Shown here: positions 27,429 through 33,062 of the stretch, in pieces | Numbering within the stretch: position 1 is the stretch's first letter | How the letters are laid out: each line of letters opens with the position of its first letter | Origin: Alphaproteobacteria bacterium | GTDB lineage: Bacteria; Pseudomonadota; Alphaproteobacteria; Sphingomonadales; Emcibacteraceae | Direction of reading: 5' to 3' | Length of the DNA stretch: 36,313 bases | Assembly: GCA_013152755.1 (NCBI GenBank) | Contig: JAADFR010000073.1 | Coordinates: forward strand, 1-36,313 | Program-made: the position numbers and the translations under genes | The notes under the pieces: model-generated | Seen by the model: only the letters and a program-made list of their open reading frames with translations | Told to the model about the DNA's origin: nothing | The model's database searches: none

Positions 27429-28609
27429 GACCGGATCTTCCCCCACGGGTTCTGGCGGTTTTTCTGGCGAGTATGGTCGCCCTAGCCCCCTTTTCCATTG
27501 ATACCTATCTGCCCGCCATGCCTGCCATGGCCACTTATTTCGGCACCAGCATCGGCATGGTGGAAATGACCGTGGGCATTTTCTTTTTGGGCTATGCCAT
27601 GGGGCAGCTGGTTGGCGGGCCGTTGTCTGACCATTTCGGGCGGCGGCGGGTTGGCGGGCCGGGGGTTGTGATCTTCTTCCTTGCCACAGTGGGGATTATT
27701 TTCGCCCCGACCATTGAATGGGCCATCTTTGGCCGCCTTGTTCAGGCCTTTGGCGGCGGCTTTGTCACTGTCATTGCCCCGTCTGTGGTCCGCGACCGCT
27801 TTAGGGGCAAGGAGGCGGCCAAAATGTTTGCCCTGATCGGGGTGGTCATGATGTTGGCCCCTCTGGTGGCCCCGGCGGTGGGGGCTGTGTTGTTGAGATT
27901 TTTTGACTGGCGGATGATTTTTGCCTTTCTGGCGGTCTATGCCCTGGTGTCTCTGGCCGTGATATTTCTGGCCTTGCCGGAGCGTCAAAAGGCCCTAAGC
28001 AAGAAGTTAAATCTGCGTAAAGTCTGGGCGGACTATGGCCGGGTTCTGACCAACCGACGCGCCATGGGCTATATGGTCACCCAGAGTTTCAGTTCGGCGG
28101 TGATGTATCTGTTCCTCACCGGGTCGGCATTTGCCTATATCGCCTATCTTGGCATTTCCACGGATATGTTTCCGATCCTGTTTGGGGCCAATATCATCAC
28201 CATGATGGCCTTTAACCGCCTGAATCCCTTTCTGCTCAATCTGTTCAGCCCGCACCGGTTGATTGGTATCGGGGTTAGCATACAATTGCTGGCCTGCGTG
28301 CTTCTGTGGTCCGGGCAATATATTGACCCGCTCAATCCCTATATGGTGGTGCCGATGATTATGGTGGCCGTGGGGGTCGCCGGGATCATCATGCCCAATA
28401 GTTTTGCCTGTTATCTTGATGATTTTTCGGACAACAGCGGTTCCGCCACCGCCATTATGGGCACAAGCCAATTTGTCCTTGGCGCAATCTTAAGCGCCGT
28501 CCTCGGCCTGCTCCACAGCACAACCATATTCCCCATGACCACCATGATGCTGTTATCCAGCATCGTCGCGGTATTGAGTTACCGTTTGCTGACACGTCAG
28601 AAAAATTAA
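27425..28609 (+). CDS. Bcr/CflA-family multidrug efflux transporter (MFS)
   Basis: 394 residues, 12 membrane helices. The Bcr/CflA N-terminus is plain: SIDTYLPAMPAM, then GYAMGQLVGGPLSDHFGRRRV (MFS loop 2-3), and FGRLVQAFGGG, with VVRDRF and a WRMIF segment before helix 6. It should be a proton-driven drug or metabolite exporter in the inner membrane. Its start overlaps the ribA stop (ATGA), so it is translated with ribA; export of a flavin- or pterin-related compound is possible but speculative. The 3' end shares TTAA with the stop codon of the convergent pspF gene. No truncation is visible. Confidence 0.92.
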   Translation: MRPDLPPRVLAVFLASMVALAPFSIDTYLPAMPAMATYFGTSIGMVEMTVGIFFLGYAMGQLVGGPLSDHFGRRRVGGPGVVIFFLATVGIIFAPTIEWAIFGRLVQAFGGGFVTVIAPSVVRDRFRGKEAAKMFALIGVVMMLAPLVAPAVGAVLLRFFDWRMIFAFLAVYALVSLAVIFLALPERQKALSKKLNLRKVWADYGRVLTNRRAMGYMVTQSFSSAVMYLFLTGSAFAYIAYLGISTDMFPILFGANIITMMAFNRLNPFLLNLFSPHRLIGIGVSIQLLACVLLWSGQYIDPLNPYMVVPMIMVAVGVAGIIMPNSFACYLDDFSDNSGSATAIMGTSQFVLGAILSAVLGLLHSTTIFPMTTMMLLSSIVAVLSYRLLTRQKN

Positions 28610-29628
28610 AGCAAATCGTGTTTCTTTAATTGGTGACGGAATTGGTGATAGGTCAGATTGAGGAATTTTGCGGTGTCCCGCTGATGGAATTTATTTTTCT
28701 CTAGCGCATCCTGCAATATGCGCGCCTCAAAGGTGCCGACGGTCCGGGCGTAATCTATGGGGTTGCCGTCCAAGACAGTCTGTTCTTGCGGGGCAGGTGA
28801 GGTGGTGTTTTCTGATTGCGCCGGCCTGTCCGCACGGGGGCGGAAGGGGGATTCGAAAGGGTCCAGCTCCAACAGGGCGATGGGGGTGACCTCATCCTCC
28901 GTATGATAGACCGCGCGCTCCACAACATTTTTAAGCTCGCGGATATTACCGGGCCAGTGATGCTGCATCAGGGCATCTATCATATCATCGGAAAAGCCGG
29001 CAAAGCTGGACCAGCCCCGGTCCTGCGCCACCCGCTGACCGAATTGATAGGCCAGCAGCAATATATCATCCCGCCGGTGACGTAGCGGCGGCAGGGTAAT
29101 CACATCAAGGGCCAGACGGTCCAGCAGGTCATGGCGAAAGTCCCCCCGGTCGGCGGCGGCGGGCAGGTCAATATTGGTTGCCCCGATGATGCGCACGTCC
29201 GTCTGAATGGTCTTGTTGCTGCCGATGCGCTGAAATGTGCCATATTCAGTGACCCGCAACAGTTTTTCCTGCGCGGACAGAGAGGTTGTGGCAATCTCAT
29301 CCAGAAACAAGGTGCCGTCATTGGCTTCTTCAAAGCGGCCAATACGCTTCATATTGGCTCCCGTGAAGGCTCCGGCCTCATGACCGAATAATTCGGATTC
29401 CAGAAGATTTTCCGGCAGGGCGGCGCAATTGACCTGAACAAAGTTTTTTTCCCAGCGCGGCGAGAGAAAATGCAGCCGGGCGGCAATCAATTCCTTGCCC
29501 GTGCCCCGCTCGCCAATGACCAGCACAGGCCGATCATGGCGGGCCGCCCGGGAACATTGATCAATGATTTCCAGAAAAGCCGGACTTTCTCCGATCAACG
29601 TCTGGTCTTGTGGAGCATTTAGGCGCAT
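28606..29628 (-). CDS. pspF: Sigma-54 activator PspF
   Basis: 340 residues, no N-terminal receiver domain, so it belongs to the PspF type. The AAA+ domain has Walker A GERGTGKE (39-46), the sigma-54-contacting GAFTGA (86-91), Walker B GTLFLDEI (105-112), and the Arg-rich sensor part. A FIS-type helix-turn-helix ends the protein (FHQRDTAKFLNLTYHQFRHQLKKHDLL). In the classical system PspA inhibits PspF until envelope stress releases it. It is divergent from pspA across 180 bases, where a sigma-54 promoter lies. That the adjacent pspA is frameshifted bears directly on its regulation. Confidence 0.96.
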   Translation of the reverse strand: MRLNAPQDQTLIGESPAFLEIIDQCSRAARHDRPVLVIGERGTGKELIAARLHFLSPRWEKNFVQVNCAALPENLLESELFGHEAGAFTGANMKRIGRFEEANDGTLFLDEIATTSLSAQEKLLRVTEYGTFQRIGSNKTIQTDVRIIGATNIDLPAAADRGDFRHDLLDRLALDVITLPPLRHRRDDILLLAYQFGQRVAQDRGWSSFAGFSDDMIDALMQHHWPGNIRELKNVVERAVYHTEDEVTPIALLELDPFESPFRPRADRPAQSENTTSPAPQEQTVLDGNPIDYARTVGTFEARILQDALEKNKFHQRDTAKFLNLTYHQFRHQLKKHDLL

Positions 29629-29740
29629 TTTGCTAAACTTTAGTTGTTTTCACTAATATTTATTATATTTCAAAACATGTCTTTTTCCAATGAAAATATA
29701 TTTTCCTTATAAAACAGTCTGTTAACATGAATATCTAAAT

Positions 29741-29756
29741 TGGCACGCTTTCTGCA
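29741..29756 (+). promoter_or_regulatory. Sigma-54 (-24/-12) promoter of the psp operon
   Basis: TGGCACG then CTTT then CTGCA matches the sigma-54 consensus TGGCACG-N4-TTGC[A/T] at all but one position of the -12 part. It is 53 bases before the pspA start codon, so the transcript would begin near 29767. The 110 bases before it, back to pspF, probably hold PspF upstream binding sites. Confidence 0.9.
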
Positions 29757-29808
29757 ATGTTCAGGGTGAGTACACCGGAGGGGTGCAATTTTTAAACGGA
29801 GAAAGAAA

Positions 29809-30501
29809 ATGGGCATTTTTACCCGCCTCACAGACATTGTAAATTCAAACATCAACCACATTCTGGACAAGGCCGAAGATCCGGCCAAAATGATCCGTGG
29901 TTCAGGAAATGGAAGACACCCTTGTTGAAGTCCGTTCCTCTGCCGCCCGTGTCATTGCCGACCGCAAGGAACTTGAACGTAATATGGCACGCCTGCAAGA
30001 CGCGCAGGATGATTGGTATGCCAAGGCAGAGCTGGCGCTGAATAAAGGCCGGGAAGACCTGGCCAGTGCCGCGCTTATGGAGCGGGCCAAGCTGGCCGAA
30101 ATGGCTGAGGATCTGGAAAGCAACCGGGTGCCTCTTGATGAAGCCCTGAAGAAATACGAAAGCGACATTATCAGTCTTGAAGCCAAAATCAAGGAAGCCA
30201 AGCTCAAGCAACGCAGCCTTGTGGAACGGCAGGAAAGCGCCACCAGCCAGTTAAAAGTGCGTCAAAAGCTCTATGACAACCGGATTGGTGACGTCATGGT
30301 CCGCTTTACTCAGATGGAAAACGTGTTGATGATACGGAAAGCCGGGTTGAGGCCGCTGATCTTGGCCGTGAGAAAACTTTGGATGATGAATTCTCTGATC
30401 TTGTGTCACAGCAGCAGGTGGCCAGTGATCTGGCGGCCTTGAAATCAAAGATGAAGGCAAAAGATACCAAAACCAAGGCCACATCAACGGCTAAAAAATA
30501 A
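29809..30501 (+). pseudogene. pspA: PspA, two frameshifts (disrupted or sequence errors)
   Basis: The reading frame is broken twice but all parts are recognisable. From ATG 29809 (ribosome site GGAGAAAG), [15 protein letters not shown] matches the PspA N-terminus. After KMIR at 29898 the frame shifts (two or five bases missing compared with R-L-x-x-Q-E-M-E) and the direct frame stops at 29926-29928, giving 39 residues. The second part, [17 protein letters not shown] onward, is open to 30442 in the next frame, but homology leaves it at the A-run 30318-30321. There one base seems lost, and the first frame resumes with RVDDTESRVE to AALKSKMKAK and a stop at 30501. The restored protein would be about 230 residues of coiled coil, an ESCRT-III-like peripheral membrane protein that controls PspF. 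With pspF, B and C intact, error is as likely as decay. Confidence 0.85.
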
Positions 30502-30508
30502 TATAATT

Positions 30509-30533
30509 CCCTTCCCTTGTCGCAAGGGAAGGG
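30509..30533 (+). other. Intercistronic stem-loop between pspA and pspB
   Basis: CCCTTCCCTTG pairs with CAAGGGAAGGG over 11 bp with a TCG loop. There is no T-tract, so it is not a normal terminator. It starts 7 bases after the pspA stop and ends 24 bases before pspB, and may protect the pspA message or lower expression of the downstream genes. Confidence 0.75.
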
Positions 30534-30557
30534 CTGAACGCAGGAAAGGGCAATATA

Positions 30558-30770
30558 ATGGAAACTCTCGGTATCCTCTTTATGGTAGTGGTCGCCCCAT
30601 TGATGATCATATTTCATTATGTCACCAAATGGAAACAGTCCAAGACATTGACCTCGGAAGATGAGAAGATTCTCACCGAACTGTGGGACAGCGCGGAAAG
30701 AATTGAGAGCCGTATCAAGAATATCGAACGTATTCTGGATACCGAGTCTCCGGACTGGAGGGCAAAGTAA
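30558..30770 (+). CDS. pspB: Phage shock protein B
   Basis: 70 residues, the usual PspB length. One N-terminal membrane helix (about 4-21) is followed by a charged helical segment (KILTELWDSAERIESRIKNIERILD) and the typical tail SPDW, near which E. coli PspB also ends. PspB with PspC senses envelope stress in the inner membrane and recruits PspA away from PspF. The first ATG is preceded by AGGAAAGGG (30541-30549). It overlaps pspC by one base (TAATG), so the two are coupled. It is intact, unlike pspA. Confidence 0.93.
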   Translation: METLGILFMVVVAPLMIIFHYVTKWKQSKTLTSEDEKILTELWDSAERIESRIKNIERILDTESPDWRAK

Positions 30771-31174
30771 TGACCCGCGATCACAACCATCAACCGCCAA
30801 GATATAACAAGCTTTATCTGGATAAGAAGAATGCCAAGATATGCGGCGTTTGTGCCGGGATTGCCGATTATACCGGTATCGACAGCACCATTATCCGTAT
30901 TGTGGCCATCCTGGGCCTGCTCTCTCCCGCCAGCGGCATCTTTTTCATCGCCTATTTCCTTATGTGCTGGTTGGTGGATGCAAAGCCTGCGGATCTATTT
31001 GAAAGCAAGGAAGAGGATGAATTCTGGAAAGGGGTACGGACCCAGCCAAAAAATACTATCCGGGATGTGCGTCATAAATTCCGGGAAATTGAACGCCGCC
31101 TGAGAGCTGCGGAAGCCCATGTAACATCGCGGGAATACAGCCTGCATAAAGAATTCGAGAATCTTGATAAATAG
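30770..31174 (+). CDS. pspC: Phage shock protein C
   Basis: 134 residues with a PspC domain at about 12-70: KLYLDKKNAKICGVCAGIADYTGIDSTIIRI, then one membrane helix (about 43-69). The C-terminal half is charged and helical, with a coiled-coil look (VRHKFREIERRLRAAEAH). With PspB it forms the membrane sensor of the psp response. It overlaps pspB by one base and is followed after 31 bases by a second PspC-type gene. Length is normal for proteobacterial PspC. Confidence 0.93.
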   Translation: MTRDHNHQPPRYNKLYLDKKNAKICGVCAGIADYTGIDSTIIRIVAILGLLSPASGIFFIAYFLMCWLVDAKPADLFESKEEDEFWKGVRTQPKNTIRDVRHKFREIERRLRAAEAHVTSREYSLHKEFENLDK

Positions 31175-31205
31175 ATCAGAGGATCGATATTAAAGGAGCC
31201 AGAAG

Positions 31206-31433
31206 ATGAGCAGACATGACACTATAAACAGTAAGAAACTCTATAAAAACAGCCGCAGGGGCAAAATATGCGGTATTTTTTCCGGCCTGGGCGACTATCT
31301 GGGGATTAATCCCATGATCCTGCGCATCCTTGGCATAATTGCCATCCTGATGACCGGACCGATTGTTATACTTGGCTATCTGCTGGTCAGCCTTTTGCTT
31401 GATGACAGCGACCAAGGGCTTTACAGAAGATAA
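31206..31433 (+). CDS. Second, short PspC-domain protein
   Basis: 75 residues, almost nothing but a PspC domain: KLYKNSRRGKICGIFSGLGDYLGINPMILRI, then a membrane helix (about 41-66) and a short charged end (LLLDDSDQGLYRR). It keeps the family core that aligns residue for residue with the longer PspC upstream, but lacks the coiled-coil C-terminus. AAAGGAG lies 8 bases before the ATG. As an isolated PspC domain it could regulate or replace the longer paralogue in the sensor complex. That role is inference. Such short forms are also found as stand-alone PspC genes elsewhere. Confidence 0.85.
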   Translation: MSRHDTINSKKLYKNSRRGKICGIFSGLGDYLGINPMILRILGIIAILMTGPIVILGYLLVSLLLDDSDQGLYRR

Positions 31434-31460
31434 AAATAATAAACTAAAGAGGATAATGAA

Positions 31461-31742
31461 ATGCTTGTTTTTGAAATGTTTGTCTGGATTGTTGCAATAG
31501 CCGTTATCGGGGGCGTCATCAAAAGCTACTTGGACCGGAAAAACGACAGGGGCTCCGGCAGTATGATGGATGACCTGAAGAATGACCTGGGCATGAGCGA
31601 AGGCGATGGCTTTTATACAAAAAAGGATATGGCCCGCTTTATGGACAGATTTGAAGTTATGGAAAAACGTATTCAGGTTCTGGAACGTATTGCCACCGAC
31701 AAAGGCCGCACGCTGGCCGATGAAATAAATGACCTGAAATAA
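31461..31742 (+). CDS. PspB-like small membrane protein
   Basis: 93 residues. One N-terminal membrane helix (about 4-22), a short linker, then a charged coiled-coil (about 52-90: ARFMDRFEVMEKRIQVLERIATDKG). The layout and the IQVLERI segment resemble the RIKNIERI segment of PspB at 30558, so I read it as a divergent PspB paralogue, although it lacks the SPDW tail and is 23 residues longer. GAGGATAATGAA precedes the ATG. It lies after the second PspC, so the operon reads B, C, C, B. The evidence for PspB homology is by eye only. Confidence 0.65.
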   Translation: MLVFEMFVWIVAIAVIGGVIKSYLDRKNDRGSGSMMDDLKNDLGMSEGDGFYTKKDMARFMDRFEVMEKRIQVLERIATDKGRTLADEINDLK

Positions 31743-31766
31743 GTTGGACAAGTGAGAGGATTTGAT

Positions 31767-32318
31767 ATGACCACAACAACCACAGAAATCATCGTAACGC
31801 CTGCCAACGACAATCCGGCACTGGGTATATTGACCATGGGGGACAAAGTTTTCCCCTGTGCCTTGGGCAAAAAAGGCATCACCCTGTCCAAAAGCGAAGG
31901 CGACCATAAAACACCGTCCGGTGTCTTTCCCCTCAGAACCGTTTTTTATCGCTATGACAAGTTGTCTAAGCCGATTTATAGCCAGGTCCCCATGATGGCG
32001 CTGCTGAAAGAAGATGGTTGGTGCGATGATCCGTCAGATGCGGCTTATAACCAGTCCGTCATGTTACCCTATCATGCCAGTGCGGAAAGCCTGTGGCGGG
32101 AAGATGAGTTATATGATGTGATTGTGGTCTTAGGCCATAATGACAGTCCGGTGGAAAAGGATAAGGGCAGTGCCATATTCCTTCATGTGGCCAAAGACCT
32201 GAATGATGATAGTAATTTTGAAGGTACGGAGGGCTGTATAGCCCTGAAAAAGCAGGACTTGCTAGAAATCCTACCCATATTGTCGCCTGAAACAACTTTA
32301 AAAGTGGTGACCCACTAA
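31767..32318 (+). CDS. L,D-transpeptidase (YkuD-type) domain protein
   Basis: 183 residues from ATG 31767, with GAGAGGA 6 bases before it; a GTG at 31752 would only add five residues. The YkuD signatures are LGHNDSPVEKDKGSAIFLHV (histidine of the active site) and TEGCIALKKQDL (nucleophile Cys in GC, usually SHGC). SKSEGDHKTPSGVFPLR is a matching N-terminal block. It resembles the COG3786 branch rather than ErfK. Such enzymes cross-link peptidoglycan or attach lipoproteins in the periplasm, but no signal peptide is visible here, so location is unclear. It ends the psp operon, and a strong terminator follows 59 bases downstream. Membership in the psp regulon fits cell-envelope repair. Confidence 0.85.
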   Translation: MTTTTTEIIVTPANDNPALGILTMGDKVFPCALGKKGITLSKSEGDHKTPSGVFPLRTVFYRYDKLSKPIYSQVPMMALLKEDGWCDDPSDAAYNQSVMLPYHASAESLWREDELYDVIVVLGHNDSPVEKDKGSAIFLHVAKDLNDDSNFEGTEGCIALKKQDLLEILPILSPETTLKVVTH

Positions 32319-32377: not shown

Positions 32378-32415
32378 CCGGTGTTCCTCAATCTTAAGGA
32401 ACACCGGTTTTTTTT
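32378..32415 (+). terminator. Rho-independent terminator of the psp operon
   Basis: An 11-bp perfect stem (CCGGTGTTCCT and AGGAACACCGG) with an 8-base loop is followed by eight T. It ends the psp transcript 59 bases after the transpeptidase stop, just before the convergent PEP-CTERM gene. Confidence 0.93.
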
Positions 32416-32423
32416 GGATCAGG

Positions 32424-33062
32424 TTATATGGATTTCCGGCGGCGCAGAGCAACCATGCCCAATAAACCAAGCCCCAATAGACCTATCATGGATGGTTCAG
32501 GAACATCAGCACGTGGTGACCGCATGGTCAATACGCGAATATAATCCCCGGGACTACCTGCTCTGAAATTAATCAACAGACGATTGGCCATAGTAGGGTC
32601 TATAGAAGCAGAATCCCCTGGTTCCAATCCACGTAGAGTGGAACCAACATAATTAACGCCCGTATTGGCCAGAAAATCACTTGCCGCTAGGTTTGCGGAG
32701 CCCGTGATAATACCATAGATATCAGCATCAAAATCCACCCAGCCAATTATTCTGCGCGTCAACACAGGGTCAAAGAAAATATAATGACTGGCCACAATAT
32801 TTCCGTTAACCGGATTGGTGCCTACATCGACAGTAATTGTTGATGTGATCGCAATATTTTGATCCTCATTAAAGCCAAAAAGATTTGGGCTTTGTTGATT
32901 ATTATTCCCTACGGTAAGTCCCGCCGGAATTGGGTCAAGAAGCTCAAATACGCCACCGGTCGAGGTTCCCCCTGTGACACTACCTGTAACAATCGTGGCA
33001 AATGCCGAAACAGGCATTAAAATTACAGCCAGCATGGCCGAGATAAGTTTAATTTTTAACAT
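32424..33062 (-). CDS. PEP-CTERM surface protein
   Basis: 212 residues. A signal peptide (about 1-22, cleavage after AFA) leads into a secreted, low-charge, beta-rich domain with many Asn, Gly, Thr and Val. The C-terminus is a textbook PEP-CTERM tail: VPEP, a hydrophobic helix (IGLLGLGLLGMVAL), and an Arg cluster (RRRKS). Proteins with this tail are cut and handed on by exosortase EpsH/XrtA in bacteria that make exopolysaccharide. No exosortase or polysaccharide genes are in the window. The middle domain has no recognised family. GGAGGATATA precedes the ATG. It faces the psp terminator. Confidence 0.88.
   Translation of the reverse strand: MLKIKLISAMLAVILMPVSAFATIVTGSVTGGTSTGGVFELLDPIPAGLTVGNNNQQSPNLFGFNEDQNIAITSTITVDVGTNPVNGNIVASHYIFFDPVLTRRIIGWVDFDADIYGIITGSANLAASDFLANTGVNYVGSTLRGLEPGDSASIDPTMANRLLINFRAGSPGDYIRVLTMRSPRADVPEPSMIGLLGLGLLGMVALRRRKSI

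Follow-up and report, generated by a model that had tools for sequence, protein, structure and literature searches.

The window analyzed here, a 36,313-nucleotide contig (JAADFR010000073.1) from an alphaproteobacterium of the family Emcibacteraceae (assembly GCA_013152755.1), carries a psp locus of the PspF/sigma-54 type at positions 28606-32318, in which pspF on the minus strand diverges from a plus-strand series of pspA, pspB, pspC, two additional genes for membrane proteins, designated C2 and B2, and ykuD (Table 1). At slightly below even confidence, we favor a reading in which YkuD has carboxypeptidase activity and is functionally linked to the psp response, within a PspF/sigma-54 operon that grew in two steps. 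Judged from its sequence and modeled fold, YkuD is probably an intracellular enzyme that trims recycled wall fragments and not one that cross-links the external wall. An earlier sequence-only reading of this DNA had placed five open reading frames (ORFs) after pspA in the order B, C, short C, B-like, and YkuD; all five were recovered at their positions and in that order, with PspB and PspC over their curated cut-offs and the last ORF, read there from 31752 to 32318, confirmed as a YkuD domain protein. That reading missed both the broken frame of pspA and the absence of an export signal from YkuD.

Hydropathy, the sole criterion applied, gave no signal peptide or membrane helix at or before the YkuD start in 30 related loci (L010 and L062 among them being one gene), and no hydrophobic segment was found in the window protein by the same means. 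A canonical exported transpeptidase was rejected on these grounds. Starting at ATG 31767, the protein has 183 residues (an alternative GTG at 31752 is possible), and YkuD is its only Pfam domain, with neither a wall-binding domain nor an accessory NTF2-like domain. His140 and Cys157 are invariant among aligned relatives, as is a GWCD motif; the H(S/G/D)X14-19C motif as published (PMC4599014) is not matched, Val following His140, while the His-Cys spacing is within its range. Searches with the protein returned only chance-level matches among solved structures (phmmer) and no NCBIfam model at E<=1. Close homologs were found within Alphaproteobacteria only, matches outside the class being weak (1.7e-14 at best).

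The AlphaFold model of YkuD (pLDDT 92.5) was closest among solved folds to Csd6 (Z 13.4), Pgp2 (12.6 and 12.4), and YkuD (12.1), followed by mycobacterial Ldts and Bd1075 at Z 11 to 12 (Bd1075 11.4). Csd6 is described as acting solely as an L,D-carboxypeptidase (PMC4599014), Pgp2 likewise as an L,D-carboxypeptidase (PMC8038945), and Bd1075 as possessing this activity (PMC8938487). The catalytic domain of the window protein resembles those of all three, which act on the wall; unlike them, it stands as a single domain without an export signal, whereas Csd6 is described with three domains and Bd1075 with an NTF2 domain, both as wall-acting enzymes (PMC4599014, PMC8938487). Of the two readings of YkuD, that of a carboxypeptidase in the cytoplasm is likelier than that of a periplasmic wall cross-linker.

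The association of psp with this enzyme is a trait of this family of marine bacteria. PspB lay within 3 kb of the leaderless YkuD in all 25 Emcibacteraceae genomes having both genes, against none of 15 genomes from other families of the order and none of 22 further genomes sampled from the class; five of these 22 carried both genes on one contig, at least 280 kb apart, and the rest had them on different contigs, so that some neighbors could go unseen. Linkage of psp to YkuD as a general alphaproteobacterial trait was rejected on these counts. Exceptions within the Emcibacteraceae were G008, whose PspB is near a contig end and which has no YkuD, and G018 and G025, which have YkuD but no PspB. 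The order B-C-C2-B2-ykuD set out in the sequence-only reading recurred in 11/11 B2-bearing psp loci of the genus, nine with a visible pspA and two cut off by the contig edge, and likewise in L043 and L044 of two sister genera. No report of psp-YkuD linkage was found in the literature, judged by titles and the starts of abstracts.

Comparison of gene neighborhoods revealed how the linkage arose. In 11 psp-free ykuD loci, ten from other families plus that of G018, of the same family and without PspB, yggS lay downstream of ykuD on the other strand in every case and ribA directly upstream in nine. Among 74 other loci, many on contigs that end early, 45 had yggS downstream of ykuD and 32 had ribA upstream. 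In loci of genera g1, g2, and g3, ribA and ykuD are separated by the psp module, accompanied in some by an MFS gene, and in g5 genomes G019 and G024 yggS-thiE-porin-DUF3576 lie together with ykuD elsewhere, behind pspFABC. Given the psp-free, g1-g3, and g5 layouts, psp was inserted beside an older ykuD, and the pair was later relocated together in the sister genus g5, an example of a stress operon taking over and carrying a housekeeping neighbor. Mean identity in psp-linked genomes was 73% for YkuD and 66% for YggS, against 45% and 58% in unlinked genomes; these plain identities, used where maximum-likelihood branch lengths were unusable (mean 6 to 8 changes per site), hint that constraint on YkuD changed after capture. 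The order ribA-ykuD-yggS-thiE-porin-DUF3576 is conserved in Alphaproteobacteria (L047, L051-L060, and 74 further loci).

Signals at both ends of the operon are consistent with a single transcript. The sigma-54 element recurred 66-71 bases 5' of pspA in 10/10 relatives and in 0/1000 shuffled stretches, although window-wide the pattern with at most one mismatch is not rare by chance (mean 0.77 in shuffles). Scanning the plus strand from pspA to 32378 disclosed no second terminator-like site, and the gap between the B2 stop and the ykuD ATG, 24 bases in the window, ranged from 2 to ~70 bases in ten relatives. Because of the sigma-54 site, the short gaps, and the sole strong terminator after ykuD, co-transcription from pspA to ykuD through 32318 is likely, and with the conserved gene order this upholds the single operon that had been proposed. 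An 11-pair stem at 30509-30533, between pspA and pspB, could set differing amounts of PspA and PspB/C.

Table 1. Features of the psp-ykuD locus (positions in the window)
Feature	Position	Strand	Evidence or remark
pspF, sigma-54 enhancer-binding activator	28606..29628	-	Divergent from pspA; TIGR02974 476.4 bits vs cut-off 443.55
Sigma-54 promoter element TGGCACGCTTTCTGCA	29741..29756	+	Exact pattern match; 68 bases 5' of pspA ATG
pspA, frame broken twice	29809..30501	+	Opposite frame shifts at ~29897 and ~30318
pspB	30558..30770	+	PF06667 2.5e-25; TIGR02976 80.9 vs 51.7 bits
pspC, full length, PspC domain and coiled tail	30770..31174	+	TIGR02978 123 vs 104 bits
C2, PspC domain only, tail-less	31206..31433	+	PF04024 2.4e-14, 53.3 vs 25 bits
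B2, one membrane helix and coiled helix, PspC-tail/PspB-like	31461..31742	+	Profile comparison, hydropathy
ykuD, leaderless single-domain YkuD enzyme	31767..32318	+	PF03734 52.2 vs 23.4 bits
Intrinsic terminator, operon end	32378..32415	+	11-pair stem 32378-32407 and T8

C2 is a PspC-only protein, as had been read: it is 34% identical to the PspC head (blastp 8e-14) and scores 48 bits against the full-length PspC model TIGR02978 (cut-off 104), covering profile positions 1-66 of 121. The label PspB-like given to B2 captured part of its nature. By itself, the B2 sequence of the window matched no family significantly (PspB E 0.45; PspC E 0.0095) and remained under the curated PspB cut-off (11.1 vs 25.6 bits); its hydropathy showed one peak, from residue 2, followed in the alignment by a coiled helix. 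Among 26 relatives of B2, 19 matched the PspB model TIGR02976 at E<=0.1 (best 4e-5), and Pfam PspB was matched by 18 (best E 1.4e-4), in support of the label, but 24 matched the PspC model TIGR02978 at E<=0.1 (best 7e-5), which the label left out. With hhalign, B2 aligned at a probability of 91% to PspC, from its second membrane segment through the C-terminus, at 84% to the PspC tail alone, and at 44% to PspB (controls: reversed <=1.0%, column-shuffled <=1.6%), and B2 as a plain PspB was rejected. The hhalign result and the TIGR and Pfam matches of the relatives place B2 in a PspB/PspC-tail kind, predicted to be nearer to the second helix and tail of PspC than to PspB. No PHROGs match was obtained at E<=0.01 for C2, B2, or YkuD.

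Together C2 and B2 appear to hold the parts of one PspC, from which we infer a second, split PspC. Two sensor pairs had been suggested earlier; there are indeed two extra PspB/PspC-type genes, but C2 and B2 are better read as this split protein. Loci L045 and L046, from two genomes, have C2 and ykuD but no B2, and both C2 and B2 are missing in the g5-type loci L048, L049, L066, L067, and L068, of which L066 and L049 are one and the same locus. B2 is dispensable, and an obligate B-C-C2-B2 hetero-complex (a hetero-complex being one of two options in the sequence-only reading) was rejected because B2, or C2 and B2 together, are missing from some psp-ykuD loci.

The source genome encodes this YkuD as its sole member of the family, an AmpG over the cut-off, and no LdcA, and S66/LdcA was found in none of the 16 genus genomes, the source genome included, several of these being incomplete. 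Among 241 class genomes, 137 had this YkuD type and 56 LdcA, with both in 13 against 31.8 expected (Fisher p 6e-9, deeper relatedness being ignored here and in the two subsets that follow). Taking one genome per family, both occurred in 7/119 vs 16.9 expected (p 3e-5) and, for those of at least 2.5 Mb, in 5/64 vs 9.6 expected (p 0.004); removing three weak matches from the 137 altered the co-occurrence little. PMC13046382 and PMC9790009 leave open what alphaproteobacteria do with imported murein tetrapeptides when LdcA and Mpl are missing. A leaderless YkuD that avoids LdcA class-wide provides a concrete, testable candidate for the tetrapeptide step, and the Emcibacteraceae would, if this is true, tie that step to the psp response. 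In five genomes of family f6 (G036, G042, G048, G053, G057), an Mpl-like gene scoring 112-130 bits with TIGR01081, below the cut-off, was located within ~500 bases of LdcA.

In the scheme that we propose, the psp module would have landed between ribA and ykuD, making ykuD the last operon gene, and in part of the family the tail-less C2 and the free PspC-tail/PspB-like B2 would have been added in a second step. Membrane damage would release PspF, and PspA and PspB/C would guard the membrane, with C2 and B2, as a split PspC-type membrane unit, widening or tuning signal reception. YkuD, in the cytoplasm, would act as an L,D-carboxypeptidase that takes the terminal D-Ala off murein tetrapeptides imported via AmpG, so that wall fragments shed in envelope stress would be broken down or reused. 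A bolder version, in which a type of cytoplasmic YkuD L,D-carboxypeptidase peculiar to Alphaproteobacteria replaces LdcA, and is in Emcibacteraceae placed under direct envelope-stress control by PspF/sigma-54 and joined by a second PspC sensor made of two polypeptides, we consider rather unlikely.

Several observations weigh against the proposed scheme. The folds of Csd6, YkuD, and LdtMt are only 1 to 2 Z units apart, and the tests of YkuD-LdcA avoidance ignore deeper relatedness. LdcA is present in 10/13 g5 genomes, nine of them with YkuD; because g5 genomes carry both, replacement of LdcA by YkuD is not strict, and a simple one-for-one replacement was rejected. Mpl was over the cut-off in none of the 241 class genomes and none of 60 relatives, and therefore tripeptide reuse as in Escherichia coli is unlikely. 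Agrobacterium tumefaciens dampD piles up tetrapeptide muropeptides, and its authors infer that there is no cytoplasmic L,D-carboxypeptidase (PMC9790009), and Caulobacter crescentus damiR is reported to accumulate anhMurNAc-tetrapeptide (PMC13046382). By analogy, these data argue against a carboxypeptidase acting on sugar-linked tetrapeptides; if A. tumefaciens and Caulobacter carry this YkuD type, only free peptides could be the substrate. A carboxypeptidase acting on free tetrapeptides, for their breakdown to amino acids, would be compatible. Finally, G025 keeps ykuD without any PspB.

That last genome also favors positional capture, whereby psp landed before ykuD by chance and a housekeeping ykuD is merely co-transcribed under stress, as do the ancestral placement of ykuD at the ribA-yggS site with no psp neighbor in other families and the restriction of the link to one lineage. 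However, the link persists over four genera and, in g5, survives relocation as a unit, while YkuD is better conserved than YggS when psp-linked and less so when unlinked; on balance, we regard pure capture as possible but somewhat doubtful. A cytoplasmic enzyme acting on another substrate, such as another D-amino-acid peptide, with the avoidance of LdcA a by-product of lineage, would accommodate the muropeptide data from Agrobacterium and Caulobacter (PMC9790009, PMC13046382), the merely marginal wall changes reported for the Gluconobacter protein LdtGo1 (PMC10727944), and the invariant GWCD motif, which has no assigned role. It appears improbable given a genus devoid of LdcA, a source genome with AmpG, and nearest folds that act on murein tetrapeptide. 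Least probable, and in our estimate very improbable, is peptidoglycan repair or cross-linking by an exported L,D-transpeptidase that envelope stress induces. The YkuD domain with its catalytic His and Cys and the residence of the gene in an envelope-stress operon speak for it, and the sequence-only reading had seen in the enzyme a tie between stress and wall cross-linking; that tie is not supported, given the lack of a signal peptide or membrane helix in the window protein and 30 loci, carboxypeptidases as the nearest folds, and a ykuD that predates the arrival of psp.

PspF, the sigma-54 site, and the pspABC order are common to this locus and the PspF-PspABC system of Proteobacteria, variants of which are listed in PMC11237479 (Ravi et al. 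2024); duplicated PspB within the operon and fusion of a divergent PspB to PspC are already recorded there. Unlike the PspF-PspABC variants described there, the present locus has an extra tail-less PspC, a free PspC-tail protein, and a terminal YkuD enzyme; the terms transpeptidase and YkuD have 0 occurrences in the main text of that paper. Like the class represented by ElsL of Acinetobacter baumannii, described as a cytoplasmic leaderless YkuD L,D-carboxypeptidase (PMC8649774), the window enzyme is a leaderless single YkuD domain, of the 105-200 residues typical of that class, in a genome without LdcA. Unlike ElsL, for which that source mentions no psp operon, it is accompanied by no Mpl. We liken the two by description and not as orthologs, matches outside the class being weak; orthology with ElsL is unsupported because Alphaproteobacteria account for nearly all occurrences of this type of YkuD. 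LdtGo1, probably a 171-residue YkuD protein when two papers are read together, is by description alone a similar small YkuD-only alphaproteobacterial protein (PMC10727944) and, unlike the window ykuD, is not known from a psp operon.

Of the core psp genes in the window, pspF, pspB, and pspC encode proteins over curated cut-offs and the sigma-54 element 5' of pspA is present. Only pspA itself is disrupted. Three-frame reading against the intact L062 showed that its first part reads as PspA up to a frame shift near 29897, which a second shift near 30318 undoes; the fragment 29897-30442 matched PF04012 at 2.3e-21 and reached 155 bits against the curated PspA cut-off of 242.95. In relatives L043-L046, L048, L049, and L062, pspA occupies one open frame, and the contig of the nearest relative, G014, begins at pspB and is thus silent on this point. 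As the shifts are opposite and the rest of the operon is intact and conserved, a sequencing or assembly error is suggested, with a pseudogene a possible alternative.

Relatives of B2 also occur outside this operon. A paralog lies directly after rpoD, the gene for the housekeeping sigma factor, in the source genome (L030/L061; G000:C156:712-972, minus strand), and genera g1, g2, g3, and g5 include further genomes with rpoD-adjoining copies. In a tree of 31 B2 sequences, of low resolution, copies sorted largely by location. The PspC tail therefore exists as a free protein, both beside rpoD and within psp operons. In family f6, genomes G053 (L016), G036 (L022), and G048 (L027) carry tandem B2-like ORFs after pspC, with up to five membrane-plus-coil frames in L016 and L027, most with an ERIVTD-type tail; the arrangement is reminiscent of the duplicated PspB recorded in PMC11237479. 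Two PspB genes ~1.2 kb apart were observed at G203:C1:2862397 and 2863616 and at G283:C15:120574 and 121773. Just past the operon terminator in the window, an ORF on the minus strand (32424-33062) has an end that, by eye, resembles what we take to be a PEP-CTERM sorting signal.

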